A DNA stretch of 64,000 nucleotides. Source: Carnobacterium mobile DSM 4848 (GTDB lineage: Bacteria; Bacillota; Bacilli; Lactobacillales; Carnobacteriaceae). Shown piece by piece: positions 6,936-52,807 of the stretch. Made by a program: the position numbers and the translations under genes. The DNA lies in contig NZ_JQMR01000001.1 in the NCBI RefSeq assembly GCF_000744825.1, positions 1,054,001-1,118,000 of the forward strand, given 5' to 3'. The stretch's first letter is position 1, and each line of letters opens with the position of its first letter. The notes under the pieces were generated by a model. That model was given only the letters and a program-made list of their open reading frames with translations. It had not been told where the DNA came from and did no database searches.

Positions 6936-7227
6936 CAAAAAAAGTACATACTCTATTCCGCGATAGAGTATGTACCTGAATTGTTTATCTCAAATAAACG
7001 GTTCACATATTTAATACTGAATGAAGTGCAAAACAAATAAAGACACAGTATTAGTTCTCCATCGTCGAGTTTTAGCACTATATGGCGTAGATTATTCATC
7101 AGCTACATTAAATATGGCCTTAATTCGACCATCTCTGTTGACCCATTGGTGTCTCTCGACGTTTTTGGGCAGCAGCATATTTCCATATAGGAGCCTCACC
7201 TAACAGAAGCTTATTCATTTCTTGTCA
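6936..7227 (-). promoter_or_regulatory. M-box (ykoK) magnesium riboswitch with terminator
   Basis: On the minus strand the conserved M-box core is recognisable: TTAGGTGAGGCTCCTATAT just below 7202, then GCTGCTGCCC and CCAATGGGTCAACAG. The aptamer runs to about 7000. A perfect 13-bp terminator stem (GTACATACTCTAT, 6944-6956, pairing with 6963-6975) with a seven-T tail forms the expression platform. M-box RNAs fold with bound Mg2+ and terminate, so mgtA is expressed when magnesium is scarce. Confidence 0.95.
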
Positions 7228-14866: not shown

Positions 14867-16288
14867 TATTTTGCGACTAATTAAAAAAATAAGAGAAAAA
14901 GTGCCTCAAACTACTGAAACAGTAATAAAATATGGTTATCAGACTCATATAAGGAGGTCACTTTTCCATGAATAGAATAACACAATTATCATTATTTGAA
15001 AACCATGAATTAGGCGATTTAGAAAAGTTGAATGATGTATTAACGGCATTACCGGGTGAAAATCTGTTAACTGCATTAGAAGAAGAACGTGGAAAGGGCA
15101 GAAATGATTATCCAGTTCATACCATGTGGCGTGCTTTCGTAGCTAGTTTTGTCTTTCAACATCGCTCTGTCGCTTCTTTGATTCGAGAGTTGAAGCGGAA
15201 TAGCCAACTCAGAGAACTATGCGGATTTCACCTCATTTTTCGCGCTCACAAAAAGGCAAGTATAGGGTTCAACTAGCTCCCACAGAAGCTGCTTTTTCTC
15301 GATTTTTAAAAAAGTTACTGCTCCATCAACACCTATTAGATGAGATGTTTACTGAATTGGTCACTACTTTATATGAAACACTGGATGGATTTGGGCAAAC
15401 GTTAGCTTTAGATGGAAAAATCATCCCTTCTTATGCTACAAAACCAAATAAAAAAGTAGAACATGATGGCAGAAGAGATACTGAAGCAGATTTCACACTA
15501 AAACAATATACCACTACGACAGCCAATGGCGAGAAGATAACAAAGAAGAAAACATGGTTTGGTTATCGACTTCATTTAATCGTTGATGCAAATTATGAAT
15601 TGCCTGTAGCCTACGAAGTGACTAAAGCATCTGAAGGCGAACCGACGGTCGCAAAAAGACTGATCAAACATTTTTCTACCTCACAAGCAAAACAGTGTGA
15701 CTATCTTCTAGCTGACAGAGGATATGATGGAGCTCCATTATTAAGTCTCATTGAATCTAAAGAAATAATTCCCATTATTGATATTAAAAACCAGTGGGAT
15801 AAAGATACGCTAACCAAACAATATCGAGATACAGATTTAATTTATACGTATAACGGAGCGGTTTCCTATGTCGATGAAAAAGGAAATGAGATAAAGCTAG
15901 CGTATATGGGACATGATAAGAAAACAGATTGTTTACGTTATGGATTTAAATCTCAATATCAGGATAACCGGCTTTTCAGAATAAAATGTGAAGAAGACTG
16001 ACGTATATTTAACAAAGTCGCTAGGGATAGTTTTAAGTTCAAACGAATCTACAAAAAGCGAACCTCTATTGAGCGAGTAAATGGACGAATCGATCGAGAT
16101 TACCTATTTGAGAATCATACGATACGAGGAAAAAAGAAACTGAATCTTTTTGTGACGATGACTTTTCTCATTATGTTAGCCTTTGCGAAAGATAAGATCA
16201 GTAAAAACCATCTAGCTTATCTAACTGCTTGGGTAGCTTAATTTTTTTAAAATTAGAAGGGATCGTTTATTTGACGTACGCAAAAATA
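14867..16288 (+). mobile_element. Insertion sequence, about 1.4 kb, DDE transposase (IS5/IS1182-like), inactive
   Basis: A broken transposase gene is flanked by short candidate terminal inverted repeats: TATTTTGCG at 14867-14875, and its near-complement CGCAAAAATA at 16279-16288. The exact ends and target duplication cannot be fixed by eye. The N-terminal InsH-like (DUF772) region and the DDE core place it in the IS4/IS5 superfamily. Its two coding lesions show it can no longer move on its own. Confidence 0.65.
14968..16241 (+). pseudogene. DDE transposase, frameshifted and with an internal stop
   Basis: A transposase frame starts at ATG 14968 behind AAGGAGG. The N-terminal part (MWRAFVASFVFQHRSVASLI) is an InsH-type domain. 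After LRELCGF the frame slips. Adding one T to the TTT at 15226-15228 would restore C-G-F-S-P-H-F and lead into the second frame. That frame carries LALDGKIIPSY and LADRGYDG, the first two catalytic Asp regions. A TGA at 15999-16001 then interrupts it. The same frame continues to TAA at 16241, with KKRTSIERVNGRIDRDY holding the catalytic Glu. A programmed frameshift is unlikely given the additional nonsense codon. Confidence 0.85.
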
Positions 16289-17550: not shown

Positions 17551-18354
17551 TTATCCTAAAATCAAGGCATCATCACTTACACGGTCTCCACTGTTTTTAT
17601 GGAACAACTCCAGCAAATCGGGAACTGTCATATTTTGTTTTTCCTTACCAGAAACATCTACTGCTACTTGACCATTATACAGCATGATCAACCGGTTGCC
17701 GTATTCAATCGCGTTCTCCATGTTATGGGTGATCATCATGGTAGTTAACTGTTCCTCTTTTACAACTTTATCCGTTAATTCAAGTACCATTTTACTTGTT
17801 TTTGGATCCAAGGCAGCTGTATGTTCGTCTAACAATAATAGTTTTGGTGTTTGTAATGTGGCCATCAGTAAAGTTAACGCCTGCCTTTGCCCTCCGGATA
17901 AAAGGCCTACTTCCATTTTCAAACGAGTTTCTAATCCCAAATCCAATTGCTTTAATCGTTCGCAAAATTCTATGCGCTGCTTTTCTTTAACTCCAAGTGA
18001 CAGTCCGCGTTTTTTTCCACGATTATAGGCAACTGCTAAGTTCTCTTCAATACTTAACCTTGTAGCTGTTCCCATTTTAGGGTCTTGAAAGACACGCCCA
18101 ATATTTTTAGCTCGTTCTGCTGTTTTTTGATGCGTTACATCTTCACCATCTAGAAAAATGTGTCCTGATTCAACAAAAAAGCTTCCAGCAATACTGTTTA
18201 AGAGTGTTGATTTCCCAGCACCATTTCCTCCAATAATCGTAACAAATTCGCCTTCTTCAATAGTTAGATTCAGGCCTTTTAATACATGGTTTTCATTAAT
18301 TGTTCCCATTTCAAAACTTTTATGGATATTTTTAATTTGTAAAATAGCTGTCAC
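17551..18354 (-). CDS. ABC importer ATP-binding protein (COG1101 type)
   Basis: This 267-residue ATPase is the third gene of a substrate-binding/permease/ATPase set of the TrpXYZ type. Walker A GGNGAGKST lies at about 41-49, the signature LLSGGQRQ near 150 and Walker B LLLLDEHTAALD near 172-183. The GTG start at 18354 sits one base after the permease stop, with AAAGGAGTG inside the permease end, so translation is coupled. The substrate of this transporter class is poorly known; the leader upstream hints at an amino-acid-related signal. Confidence 0.88.
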   Translation of the reverse strand: MTAILQIKNIHKSFEMGTINENHVLKGLNLTIEEGEFVTIIGGNGAGKSTLLNSIAGSFFVESGHIFLDGEDVTHQKTAERAKNIGRVFQDPKMGTATRLSIEENLAVAYNRGKKRGLSLGVKEKQRIEFCERLKQLDLGLETRLKMEVGLLSGGQRQALTLLMATLQTPKLLLLDEHTAALDPKTSKMVLELTDKVVKEEQLTTMMITHNMENAIEYGNRLIMLYNGQVAVDVSGKEKQNMTVPDLLELFHKNSGDRVSDDALILG

Positions 18355-18355
18355 T

Positions 18356-19261
18356 TTAATTCACTCCTTTCTTCCATCTATTTTTGAACTGCAGCGGATC
18401 TTTTTTTCTTTTCTTTTTCAATAAGGGGGTTGAAAGCGCAATAGCTAGGATTAATGCTGAAAACAGCTTAATATCTTGAGGATCAACACCCAATTGTAAA
18501 ACTAAATCAATAATCAAGCGGTAAACTATCGACCCAATTACAATTGTTCCTAAACGTTTAACAAAAGACAAATTACGGAAAAGAACTTCTCCAATAATGA
18601 CTGAAGCTAAGCCAATCACAATCGTTCCAATTCCCATACCAATATCTGCGTAACTGTTATTTTGGGCAATCAATGCACCAGATAAGGCAATCAATCCATT
18701 ACTCAACATATAGCCGATAATTTTCATGGTATTCGTATGGATGCCATTTGCTTCACTCATCGCTTCATTATCGCCAGTCGAACGAATAGCCAACCCAATC
18801 TCAGTATTAAAAAAGAGGTATAAAATAAGAATGACTAATGCACTGGCAATTGCTCCTACAACTAAGACCGCCGTTCGGTTAGTTAATCCATAAGCTTGCA
18901 TTATCCGCATCAAAGTTTCTTTCCCAAGTAAAGTGATATTGGCTTTTCCCATAATTCTCAAATTAATAGAATACAATCCTGTCATAGTCAAAATACCAGT
19001 CAACAGCGCAGGAATTTTTAATTTAGTATGCAGCAAGCCTGATACTGTGCCTGCCAGCATTCCACCTAATAAAGCGGCTGCTGTAGACCATAAAGGAGAA
19101 ACTCCATAAGCAATCAGACTTGCACAGATTGCTGCTCCAAGCGGAAAGCTCCCTTCCGCCGTTAAATCGGCAATGTCCAATATGCGAAAAGTTAAATAAA
19201 CACCAATAGCCATGATTGACCATAATAAACCTTGTGAGATGCTGGATAATAAGATACTCAT
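18356..19261 (-). CDS. ABC importer permease (COG4120 type)
   Basis: This 301-residue membrane protein has about eight to nine hydrophobic segments and belongs to the branched-chain-amino-acid-permease-like fold (LivHM-type) used by TrpXYZ-class importers. It carries the GNRMETIGLSSTGDNEAMS-like cytoplasmic loop in the form IGLAIRSTGDNEAMSEANG (about 155-173), the probable ATPase contact. The basic tail ends KKRKKDPLQFKNRWKKG. It lies between the binding protein and the ATPase in one transcript. Confidence 0.87.
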   Translation of the reverse strand: MSILLSSISQGLLWSIMAIGVYLTFRILDIADLTAEGSFPLGAAICASLIAYGVSPLWSTAAALLGGMLAGTVSGLLHTKLKIPALLTGILTMTGLYSINLRIMGKANITLLGKETLMRIMQAYGLTNRTAVLVVGAIASALVILILYLFFNTEIGLAIRSTGDNEAMSEANGIHTNTMKIIGYMLSNGLIALSGALIAQNNSYADIGMGIGTIVIGLASVIIGEVLFRNLSFVKRLGTIVIGSIVYRLIIDLVLQLGVDPQDIKLFSALILAIALSTPLLKKKRKKDPLQFKNRWKKGVN

Positions 19262-19289: not shown

Positions 19290-20252
19290 TTATTTTGGTA
19301 CGCTAATACTTTCAGGATCTATACCTAGAGCTTTAGCCATTTCTTCGTTAATAACCAGTTCTAAGTTTTTTGAAGTTTCAATAGAAAGTTCGGCTGGATC
19401 AGCGCCTTCCTTGATGATTTTCAAAGCCAACTCTGCTGTTTGTCCGCCTAAATCAGAATAGTTGATGCCATAAGTTGCTAAAGCTCCTGCTTCTACCATC
19501 TCTGCCGAACCTGGAACAACTGGTAGTTTGTATTCTGTCGCGATTTCCCCAACAGTCGGCATAGTACTTGCTAATGTGTTATCTGTAGGAATATAAACAG
19601 CTTCAACTTCTTGCGCTAAAGTCGTCATGACTTGTTGCACATCATTTGTCGTCGTTACGGTTAAAACTTTCACTTTTACTCCTTGATCTTCAAGGGCTTT
19701 TTCAGCTAAATCAGCTTGGATTTTTGAATTTGGTTCGCTGGAATTATAGATAATTCCAATTGTCTTTGCTTCTGGAGCTATTGATAACAACAAAGCAATT
19801 TGCTCTTCAATGGGAACCATATCACTTGTACCAGTTAAATTCCCTCCCGGTTTTTCCATGCTCTCAACTAATCCTGCATCAACTGGATCTGTAACAGCTG
19901 TAAATAAAATAGGATCTTCTTTTGTACTGTTCGCTACTGCTTGAGCAGCAGGAGTTGCAATTGTCAGGATGACATCATTTTCTCCAGCTAATCGTTCGCT
20001 CATACTTTGCAGATTAGACTGATCTCCTTGCGCATTTTGGTAATCTACCGTTAAGTTTTCCCCTTCCACATATCCTTCTTCTTCCAGCTTAGCTAAAAAA
20101 CCTTTGCGTGCTAACGATAAAGAATCATGTTCCATATACTGCAATATCCCTATATTGACCTCTTCTCCTTTATCCGCTTTATCTGAATTGCCACATGCTG
20201 CTAATACCAATCCTGCAGTTAGTGCTACTAGACTTAATAATGTTTTCTTCAT
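19290..20252 (-). CDS. ABC importer substrate-binding lipoprotein (COG2984, TrpX-like)
   Basis: This 320-residue extracellular lipoprotein captures the substrate for the importer encoded downstream. The signal peptide ends with the lipobox LVLAAC, where Cys20 would be lipidated. The body is the periplasmic-binding fold of the COG2984 family (VNIGILQYMEHDSLSLARKG near residue 32). Relatives in streptococci are annotated as tryptophan transporters (TrpX), but no binding data exist to transfer here. It is the first structural gene after a long regulated leader, with a GAGGAGG ribosome site. Confidence 0.9.
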   Translation of the reverse strand: MKKTLLSLVALTAGLVLAACGNSDKADKGEEVNIGILQYMEHDSLSLARKGFLAKLEEEGYVEGENLTVDYQNAQGDQSNLQSMSERLAGENDVILTIATPAAQAVANSTKEDPILFTAVTDPVDAGLVESMEKPGGNLTGTSDMVPIEEQIALLLSIAPEAKTIGIIYNSSEPNSKIQADLAEKALEDQGVKVKVLTVTTTNDVQQVMTTLAQEVEAVYIPTDNTLASTMPTVGEIATEYKLPVVPGSAEMVEAGALATYGINYSDLGGQTAELALKIIKEGADPAELSIETSKNLELVINEEMAKALGIDPESISVPK

Positions 20253-20304
20253 TTTCTTTTCCTCCTCGTTTTTATGTTCTTATCAGACGGAGCTAAGCAA
20301 TAAA

Positions 20305-20350
20305 CTAAAAAAACACCCACTTAGATAATAAACAATCTAAGTGGGTGTTT
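20305..20350 (-). terminator. Leader terminator (segments 3 and 4 of the attenuator)
   Basis: A perfect 16-bp stem, AAACACCCACTTAGAT (minus, 20350-20335) with ATCTAAGTGGGTGTTT (20326-20311), has an 8-base loop followed by T's. It lies between the leader ORFs and the binding-protein gene, so it must be overcome for expression. Confidence 0.93.
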
Positions 20351-20387
20351 CGTTTATTTTAAATAAAAATAAAATAAGGTCATCTAT

Positions 20388-20421
20388 GCACCACTTAGAT
20401 TTAACTTTCATCTATGTGGTA
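20388..20421 (-). promoter_or_regulatory. Switch hairpin (segments 1 and 2) of the attenuator
   Basis: ACCACATAGAT, which overlaps the last codons and stop of leader ORF 2, pairs with ATCTAAGTGGT (10 of 11 positions, 9-base loop). The second arm also matches ten consecutive bases of the terminator's first arm (CCACTTAGAT). Pairing 1:2 allows the terminator to form, while pairing 2:3 forms an antiterminator. Confidence 0.75.
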
Positions 20422-20467
20422 CAATCAGCTCAATACAAAATGCCTTAGCCATCATAGATACAAACAT
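20408..20467 (-). CDS. Leader peptide 2 of the ABC importer operon (19 aa)
   Basis: The ATG at 20467 follows AGGAAACAGTA with a 7-base spacing. The frame encodes MFVSMMAKAFCIELIVPHR and stops at TGA 20408-20410. Its final codons (Val-Pro-His-Arg-stop) lie inside segment 1 of the switch hairpin, as in classical attenuators. The start region sits in a 9-bp hairpin with the ribosome site in the loop. The peptide has no tryptophan. I know of no similar leader. Confidence 0.7.
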   Translation of the reverse strand: MFVSMMAKAFCIELIVPHR

Positions 20468-20511
20468 TACTGTTTCCTGTTTGTATCCAAGTCTTCCCTG
20501 TCTACAAACAG
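20457..20511 (-). promoter_or_regulatory. Upstream switch (segments A, B, C) around leader peptide 2 start
   Basis: Segment A, CTGTTTGTA (minus, 20511-20503), overlaps the last codons of leader ORF 1. It pairs perfectly with TACAAACAG (20485-20477). That same segment B can instead pair as GATACAAAC with GTTTGTATC (20465-20457) across the start codon of leader ORF 2. The two 9-bp helices are mutually exclusive, so translation of ORF 1 could decide access to ORF 2. Confidence 0.7.
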
Positions 20512-20573
20512 TTTCTAAAATAGCTAAAGAAATAATTATTTAGTTGTAGAGAAGATACTGGTAAGCAGTTCAT
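20502..20573 (-). CDS. Leader peptide 1 of the ABC importer operon (23 aa)
   Basis: The ATG at 20573 follows GAGGA with a 7-base spacing. The peptide starts MNCLPVSS and ends NNYFFSYFRNCL. Five of six residues at positions 14-19 are aromatic or next to aromatics (Tyr, Phe, Phe, Ser, Tyr, Phe), which recalls Phe-rich leaders such as pheL. The stop TAG (20504-20502) falls in segment A of the upstream switch. A ribosome slowed on the aromatic codons would cover segment A. The role is inferred from layout only. Confidence 0.65.
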   Translation of the reverse strand: MNCLPVSSLQLNNYFFSYFRNCL

Positions 20574-20608
20574 ATTGAATTCCTCGCAATCCGTATTTGA
20601 TAATACTT

Positions 20609-20637
20609 AGTATAAAAACAAAAGAACCTATTGTCAA
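20609..20637 (-). promoter_or_regulatory. Promoter of the ABC importer leader
   Basis: On the minus strand a perfect TTGACA (20632-20637), 17 bp spacer and TATACT (20609-20614) give a start near 20602. The leader is about 350 nt long. Confidence 0.85.
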
Positions 20638-20813
20638 CAACTTTATTAAATAATTCTCATTTACTTATTAATCAGAACTCATACTGTGATTTTTCTATCA
20701 TCCTTTTTCCCGTTACTCCTTGCTTTTTTTCTCAAAAGTTAGGTTTTTTTATAACTTTTTGATATAATCAACGGAGTAACTTTCTCTAACTAAGAATATG
20801 AGGTGAATTAAAT

Positions 20814-52529: not shown

Positions 52530-52807
52530 GCAAAAAAAGCCTTATCCCTAAAAGGGACGAGGCTTCGATTCGCGGTACCACCCTTGTTTGGATTTACAGA
52601 AACTAAATCCACACTTGATTACATAACGGTGTATACCGGAACTTTTTTCATTACGTTAAACGTAACTCCCAAAGTCAACTCAGGAAGTGAACCTTCGTCT
52701 GGTCGATTAGACAAATGCTTACAACCCAGGGCATTTGCTCTCTTAACTAATCAAGTCCAAATTACTTTTTTCCGTCATCGTTTTTATTTACCATATTATT
52801 TTGCTTC
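52530..52807 (-). promoter_or_regulatory. T-box riboswitch (tRNA-Phe) upstream of pheST
   Basis: The minus strand has the T-box core AGGGTGGTACCGCG (52585-52571). Directly after it is the terminator GCCTCGTCCCTTTTAGGGA..TAAGGC with a seven-T tail (52534-52563). The preceding 220 nt fold into stem I-like helices. Uncharged tRNA would favour the antiterminator and raise pheST expression. I did not fix the specifier codon by eye; Phe is inferred from the genes. Confidence 0.93.

Follow-up and report, generated by a model that had tools for sequence, protein, structure and literature searches.

Attenuators of the trp, his, phe and ilv operons are known in enterobacteria, and T-boxes are common in Bacilli. 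In the passages of the literature considered here, ribosome-mediated attenuation in Bacilli is described for the Listeria Rli60 ilv-leu attenuator, which was tested by mutation and is drawn with four segments (PMC5864092), and for the Staphylococcus aureus ilv leader, in a paper that also mentions earlier predictions of branched-chain amino acid attenuators in Lactococcus and Streptococcus (PMC5794164); it has further been proposed for his genes (PMC9413887, PMC2965389), and the trpXYZ importer of Streptococcus suis is described as being under a tryptophan T-box (PMC9382623). Here we consider a minus-strand leader of about 350 nucleotides (nt) in a 64,000-nt stretch of Carnobacterium mobile DSM 4848 (contig NZ_JQMR01000001.1, positions 1,054,001 to 1,118,000; hereafter the window, whose own numbering is used throughout), which stands 5' of the gene for a binding protein of an ATP-binding cassette (ABC) importer, followed by the permease and ATPase genes. 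From the sequence comparisons below we predict with great confidence that this leader is a Phe/Tyr leader-peptide attenuator, and we propose with good confidence that it would control a probable Phe/Tyr ABC importer by ribosome-mediated attenuation of transcription, with charged Phe- and Tyr-tRNA as the signal. The attenuator reading is strong; the order of events that we give for it is a model.

A sequence-only reading of this stretch had proposed leader-peptide attenuation of transcription with two successive leader peptides, and most of its inventory was recovered. The good promoter is present, as are two short open reading frames (ORFs) that each have a purine-rich upstream site (with a Shine-Dalgarno match of four bases for both), the helices A:B, B:C, 1:2 (with one mismatch), 2:3 and 3:4 can each form, and the strong terminator has 17 pairs where 16 had been counted (Table 1). 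Promoter-like sites in the leader number four against a shuffle mean of 2.8 and so show no excess, and terminator-like sites number two against a mean of 0.1, while the 350-nt leader folds at -102.5 kcal/mol versus -66.4 kcal/mol for its shuffles (z -7.2), with none of 100 shuffles as low. The absence of a T-box core was likewise borne out, since the leader gave no T-box match at the Rfam gathering score and none among the 26 matches at E up to 5. Beyond these pairings we found a long helix X:Y, which joins the end of ORF 1 to the stretch after the start of ORF 2, and an alternative helix Y:1. In the window the spacer that separates Y from segment 1 is also a possible partner for the start region of ORF 1 (20400-20600).

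The reading as an amino acid sensor comes from the codons at the end of ORF 1 and the genes that they precede. ORF 1 with a Shine-Dalgarno match of at least three was called in 126/126 loci examined, these loci having been picked for matching the RNA model and the calls made by a caller that uses a Shine-Dalgarno score. Among 124 distinct leaders the terminal codons are Phe/Tyr in 101, Trp in 14 and Ile/Leu/Val in seven, with two left unclassed by rule. In the 97 leaders that fit the aromatic core pattern (6 do not), F and Y replace each other at all aromatic positions, with Ser or Gly retained in 94 and a final Arg in 88. Phe/Tyr codons stand 5' of ABC_sub_bind proteins and of aroE (21 loci, one of them scanned), and, once each, of aroC, DAHP synthase, prephenate dehydratase, an aminotransferase, a fusion of a transporter with a chorismate mutase, and an aroB-like protein that scores under its cut-off. 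Trp-codon leaders precede ABC_sub_bind proteins in 14/14 cases of the 126-locus set, and the genes after all 7 Ile/Leu/Val leaders are ilvE, ilvB, two ilvA and three for a branched-chain-type binding protein (the one scanned scores under its curated cut-off). A further leader outside the order of the window (L221, genome G423, oriented position about 1400-1610) carries four His codons before a hisZ-like gene whose best NCBIfam match is hisZ, at 218 bits for a cut-off of 272. The predicted RNA skeleton is the same throughout, with its codons exchanged to suit the downstream genes. Just 5' of the regulatory codons, 89 of the 115 Phe/Tyr and Trp leaders encode 'LN' with six different Leu codons, which looks selected at the level of the peptide. 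As separate observations, another leader outside the order (L206, genome G514) has aromatic codons, YYYFGWF by eye, and is followed by an ORF that we take to be transketolase-like, and 6/14 Trp-class loci (L033, L089, L117, L120, L122, L134) have an extra short Trp-codon ORF with a Shine-Dalgarno-like site between the second terminator and trpX (for example MKKKVTKRWRNK and MRQWTSQRWQSK), which is possibly a second, downstream leader peptide.

The importer itself fits the codons of its leader. The sequence-only reading had taken it for TrpX-type, an identity that we rejected for the binding protein of the window, which scores 353.4 bits against a curated cut-off of 390 (NCBIfam NF041285), and whose importer is probably a Phe/Tyr paralogue. 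By sequence its closest solved structure is the tyrosine-binding CD0873. In the account of this family in PMC6816091 one residue splits Trp-binding from Phe-/Tyr-binding members, being Gln if Trp is bound and Tyr if Tyr or Phe is bound, and a second, Glu-263, gives CD0873 its preference for Tyr. In the importers 3' of leaders the first of these residues is Gln in 14/14 of the Trp-codon class and Tyr (68) or Phe (1) in 69/69 of the Phe/Tyr-codon class, and so separates the two classes in 83/83 importers. Moreover, the TrpX cut-off is passed by 11/11 scored Trp-class proteins (of 14) and missed by 11/11 scored Phe/Tyr-class proteins (of 69), that of the window included.

These leaders are members of a set collected by homology. 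A protein search with the importer matched 50/59 related genomes, and the DNA 5' of 30 matched genes was inspected; among these first loci 24 had the strict ORF 1 pattern, four had variants recognised by eye (L005, L020, L023, L028), and two (L024 and L027) had no recognisable leader. A covariance model was built from 22/30 of them (alignment A1), leaving out those whose X or segment 2 patterns were unmatched (L004, L005, L014, L015, L020, L024, L027, L028). It matches 254/395 sampled genomes of the order of the window, Lactobacillales, in 59/80 genera, with the other 141/395 giving no match under strict filters, and 35/398 genomes of the class, 5 of these 35 lying outside the order; an exact pattern scan found 47 loci, 45 in streptococci, one in an Enterococcus and one in a Vagococcus. 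The predicted family is widespread in lactic acid bacteria and some of their relatives. The window's own genome has three matches: the leader described here, another whose Phe/Tyr codons stand 5' of a paralogue, and a weak one (21.8 bits, E 0.21) in which Trp codons are followed by a TrpX protein. For the comparison of helices we used alignment A3. It takes in every match at E up to 1e-6 (100, of which 99 are distinct) from 96/126 loci with leaders, and omits the 14 Trp-class loci, which are poorly aligned by the RNA model R1, and 16 further loci that are near-duplicates, overlapping, or divergent (five: L077, L078, L088, L114, L129). A looser run at E up to 0.01 on 100 loci gave 116 matches, of which the weakest 8 (at or below 27.5 bits) were taken as spurious; a second R1 match in genome G423 (L232) was likewise discarded as spurious.

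Across these relatives the helices are conserved as pairings. In the 99 distinct leaders, X:Y, A:B and 1:2 together have 26/34 pairs changed on both sides and 96.2% of cells paired, a result as high as which was seen in 0/500 shuffles, and slid versions of the three pair in 29 to 40% of cells. A3 was fitted to these three helices, and Y:1 and B:C played no part in that fit. For B:C 92.8% of cells are paired and 6/11 pairs changed on both sides (0/500 shuffles), its outermost pair being unpaired in half of the leaders. For Y:1 93.2% of cells are paired and 5/10 pairs changed on both sides, a number matched in 4/500 shuffles; sliding Y:1 by -3 gives an equal number of such pairs and a larger number of such cells, yet leaves only 47% of cells paired. 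Additional support comes through partner swaps, in which the native pairing energy of all seven helices was better than that of every swap (0/300; 100 leaders, 98 for 2:3 and 3:4), and again no swap reached it (0/1000) with 70 representatives or with 37 below 70% identity (35 for 2:3 and 3:4), whereas control pairings (three and four) failed to beat their swaps. A terminator-like hairpin lies 3' in 98/100 leaders when all widths from 18 to 65 are searched, and in 32/100 the 1:2 hairpin is followed by at least five U in eight. Taken together, these leaders have an ORF with a ribosome site, codons that fit the controlled genes (with the exceptions given below), a terminator before the first gene, and conserved terminator and antiterminator helices that exclude one another. 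The proposal of leader-peptide attenuation for this importer is supported, with matched changes in relatives for A:B, B:C, 1:2, 2:3 and 3:4; the comparison with relatives came out in favour of these five helices and of ORF 1, and against ORF 2 as a general part. The two successive choices that it described, A:B or B:C and then 1:2 or 2:3, both exist, but they are linked through Y.

By sequence the competition runs as a chain, from A:B against B:C and X:Y against Y:1 to Y:1 against 1:2, 1:2 against 2:3, and 2:3 against 3:4. The exact three-state relay that we draw from it is, on balance, our favoured model. In this relay, X:Y and A:B would form when no ribosome is present, followed by 1:2 and the terminator 3:4, and the leader would be OFF. 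When the amino acid is plentiful a ribosome at the stop codon would cover A, B:C would hide the start of Y, and 1:2 and then 3:4 would again give OFF. Under Phe/Tyr starvation the ribosome would stall some 2 to 10 codons earlier, covering X and leaving A free, so that A:B and Y:1 form, 2:3 follows from the release of segment 2, and the blocked terminator gives ON; in leaders with a U run after 1:2, Y:1 would also disarm that terminator. The model assumes kinetic trapping during transcription and ribosomes that occupy the start region of ORF 1. A ribosome at the stop codon is expected to cover A because the stop codon sits on or next to it, its end being at the start of arm A in 69/100 leaders, nine bases inside it in 23/100 (the type of the window) and one to four bases before it in 8/100, and at least four of the five A:B pairs are free in 458/502 modelled stalls within the last ten codons. 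The ribosome was modelled with a footprint of 12 nt from the A-site codon on, and the RNA downstream of it was folded to the end of segment 1. The mean probability of Y:1 was then 0.18 without a ribosome, 0.38 with one at the stop codon and 0.78 when stalled (0.00, 0.22 and 0.97 in the window), and the mean over stalls exceeded both other states in 96/100 leaders. When Y:1 is imposed, 96/98 leaders are expected to have at least six 2:3 pairs, and only this figure is informative, as the 0/98 obtained with 1:2 locked follows by construction from the removal of segment 2 and is no independent evidence.

Several observations weigh against this account, in whole or in part. In the folding, the best stalled probability of Y:1 leads the other states by 0.3 in only 71/100 leaders, and the 0.38 at the stop codon is not near zero. 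At equilibrium with segment 2 made, stalled leaders average 0.74 for 1:2 versus 0.22 for Y:1 (0.95-1.00 versus at most 0.05 in the window), and on average Y:1 is not the main helix in any state; since 1:2 wins at equilibrium, the ON state requires a kinetically trapped Y:1. When the region 5' of the ribosome is free to pair, Y:1 averages 0.60 over all stalls and falls to about 0.01 or less in the window, where it is lost to the pairing of the ORF 1 start with the spacer behind Y. Three leaders outside A3 (L078, L114, L129) have X and Y nearly adjacent, with no space for A, B and C, and therefore the A:B/B:C switch is not universal. On the side of the genes, PTS_EIIC_2, SBP_bac_3 and a D-lactate dehydrogenase-like enzyme found downstream of leaders have no obvious aromatic link, nor do the gene after L078, which has no match to any family, and that of its relative L114; and for two Trp-codon leaders with a terminator outside the 126-locus set (L214, L218) no gene was called in the searched downstream stretch. 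The position of Glu-263 is Ser in the importer of the window and Glu in 0/83, and therefore Phe and Tyr cannot be separated as its substrate. The Trp-class importers may form one orthologous group, in which case 14/14 does not stand for 14 independent events, and the conservation of 'LN' is unexplained by codon starvation.

Two Rfam entries cover pieces of these leaders. The first, RF02863 (sRNA_2410), begins at X and stops just short of the terminator in the Phe/Tyr class, and differs from our reading in being filed as a small RNA; the window scores 53.1 bits (E 8.5e-8), under the gathering cut-off of 61, which is reached by 18/20 of the sources tested and by L013. By its name we infer that this entry is the sRNA_2410 of Enterococcus faecium in PMC5593968, where RNA-seq and a Northern blot are described, a length of 195 nt is given in a table and two transcripts are reported, and whose text had no matches for 'leader' or 'attenuat'; the two Northern transcripts look as a terminated leader would. 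The second, RF04312 (trpB motif), is published in PMC11109978 as an orphan and strong riboswitch candidate of more than 900 members, and its two hairpins correspond, in our own mapping of the alignment, to B:C and 1:2 of the Trp class, with a model that excludes ORF 1 and X. The window scores 26.1 bits for a gathering cut-off of 59, and of the 14 Trp-class loci 8 reach that cut-off, 3 score 54.7-57.2, and L033, L121 and L122 are unlisted at E up to 0.001. In 348 sampled genomes RF04312 gave 20 matches, and 10/10 above the cut-off, seven of them at places new to the analysis, have a short Trp-codon ORF with a Shine-Dalgarno site that ends 9 to 21 nt upstream. Of the matches below the cut-off, four carry Trp codons (L222, L223, L225, L231), two Phe/Tyr codons (L224, L228) and one, L221, the His codons noted above; the other three (L226, L227, L229) lack a leader ORF and seem to be unrelated terminators. 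As judged by these alignments, both entries are parts of the same predicted attenuator family. We lean modestly towards the wider proposal of a modular family in Lactobacillales and some further Bacilli. Its single skeleton would serve Phe/Tyr, Trp, Ile/Leu/Val or His by a change of codons, the position of the ribosome would be read twice, as a stall over X or a halt at the stop codon over A, a chain of competing helices would lead to one or two terminators, and trpB motif and sRNA_2410 would be fragments.

Other explanations account for parts of this picture. In a tandem attenuator, as the sequence-only reading had it, ribosomes on ORF 1 would gate translation of ORF 2 and a stall at the end of ORF 2 would free segment 2 for 3. 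Both ORFs are indeed where this requires them, and the frame of ORF 2 is open in the leaders of the genus that were inspected by eye and in L031, L046 and L047. ORF 2 may be active in the genus of the window, at most as an addition in some close relatives, and could there coexist with the attenuator that we propose, which does not depend on it. As a general part of the system, however, the second leader ORF did not hold up: an ATG stands at its start position in 14/100 leaders, and in 7 of these the Shine-Dalgarno match is at least four bases. The peptides vary, and a few leaders (for example L037, L040 and L042, with 21 codons) begin an ORF of comparable length at this ATG that encodes another peptide. 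An ATG with a match of at least four occurs anywhere between B and Y in 12/100 leaders, and 13/100 have no ATG there at all, yet retain the helices. Many leaders share an ATG in Y, most copies of which have a Shine-Dalgarno match of three or none, and this ATG is shared because the RNA sequence there is conserved. We therefore regard a tandem attenuator as quite unlikely. An arrest-peptide sensor, in which the nascent ORF 1 peptide would bind free Phe/Tyr or another ligand and halt the ribosome, as TnaC halts it with tryptophan, would gain from the conserved 'LN' with its varied Leu codons and from the final Arg of the core, but the codons that the one skeleton carries are F/Y, W, I or H depending on the gene, F and Y interchange within the core, and the stop codon lies three codons later in 23/100 leaders, which makes this reading unlikely.

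The two database entries suggest explanations of their own. A riboswitch or protein-bound leader, with a ligand or protein at the region of the B:C hairpin as proposed for the trpB motif (PMC11109978), is very improbable: that classing rests on structure and gene context, and both hairpins do map onto our helices, but every trpB-motif match above the cut-off in the sampled genomes has its Trp-codon ORF upstream, and the authors in the text of that paper kept a classic attenuator open. That the element is an independent small RNA acting in trans, in keeping with RF02863 and with its detection in E. faecium (PMC5593968), we consider exceedingly improbable, as it stands directly 5' of matching amino acid genes with an ORF and a terminator, and as a terminated leader would yield such bands.

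Table 1. Features of the leader and of the importer genes in the window, with the evidence for each.
Feature	Position	Strand	Content or partner	Evidence or remark
Promoter	20609..20637	(-)	TTGACA-17-TATACT	11/12 consensus matches
ORF 1, leader peptide	20502..20573	(-)	MNCLPVSSLQLNNYFFSYFRNCL	relatives keep ORF 1
Regulatory codons	20514..20534	(-)	TAT TTC TTT AGC TAT TTT AGA (Y F F S Y F R)	codon class tracks downstream gene class
Segment X	20514..20529	(-)	inside ORF 1; partner Y	covariation and partner swaps
Segment A	20503..20512	(-)	overlaps ORF 1 end and stop codon; partner B	covariation; position of stop codon relative to A
Segment B	20477..20489	(-)	partner A or C	covariation and partner swaps
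ORF 2	20408..20467	(-)	MFVSMMAKAFCIELIVPHR	conservation poor
Segment C	20456..20466	(-)	partner B; overlaps 5' end of Y	B:C covariation and partner swaps
Segment Y	20443..20460	(-)	hub; partner X or 1	covariation and partner swaps
Segment 1	20410..20419	(-)	partner Y or 2	covariation and partner swaps
Segment 2	20391..20400	(-)	partner 1 or 3	covariation and partner swaps; folding with Y:1 held
Intrinsic terminator	20306..20351	(-)	3:4 plus T run	hairpin of 17 pairs at 20351-20310
Segment 3	20335..20347	(-)	first terminator arm; partner 2 or 4	partner swaps; terminator call; folding with Y:1 held
Segment 4	20314..20326	(-)	second terminator arm	partner swaps; terminator call
Substrate-binding lipoprotein	19290..20252	(-)	ABC_sub_bind	predicted Phe/Tyr rather than Trp; residue 265 is Tyr (position of CD0873 Tyr-279)
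Permease	18356..19261	(-)	BPD_transp_2	family match
ABC ATPase	17551..18354	(-)		family match

Elsewhere in the window, on the minus strand, there are an M-box magnesium riboswitch (7049-7214, 144.6 bits) and a T-box leader (52550-52787, 123.2 bits), and on the plus strand two overlapping ORFs in different frames (14968-16001) whose translations resemble what we take to be one interrupted transposase.

If the attenuator reading is true, it gives a starvation switch for Phe/Tyr, and also for Trp, Ile and His, to an order with streptococci, enterococci and vagococci among its members, and accounts together for two database entries of obscure function; the trpB motif, an orphan among riboswitch candidates whose members number over 900 by the account of PMC11109978, would become a question for a codon swap. 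As ORF 1 names the amino acid in its codons, such leaders can be used to predict what is carried by importers that have no annotation beyond ABC_sub_bind. Mechanisms of this kind are known. In the open-licence literature, as far as titles, the starts of abstracts or passages go, we found no leader-peptide attenuation of aromatic genes in Lactobacillales, no paper for four leader peptide strings, no description of the family as a leader-peptide system, of the read-out at the stop codon or of the relay, and no in vivo experiment on how it regulates. Like the enterobacterial attenuators, the leader of the window has a leader peptide with codons for the regulated amino acid, alternative hairpins and a terminator, and is predicted to be ON when the ribosome stalls. 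It differs from them in having more than the classical four segments, with an added A:B/B:C sub-switch at the stop codon and a relay that would reach a second hairpin, in the use of one skeleton for several amino acids, and in its host, which belongs to the Bacilli. From Rli60 and the S. aureus ilv leader it is set apart by the descriptions of those two, which serve branched-chain genes (PMC5864092, PMC5794164). With the trpXYZ T-box of S. suis, as described in PMC9382623, it shares the control of a paralogous importer under amino acid limitation; that leader, however, is a tRNA-binding RNA without a leader peptide, whereas the leader of the window has no T-box match.

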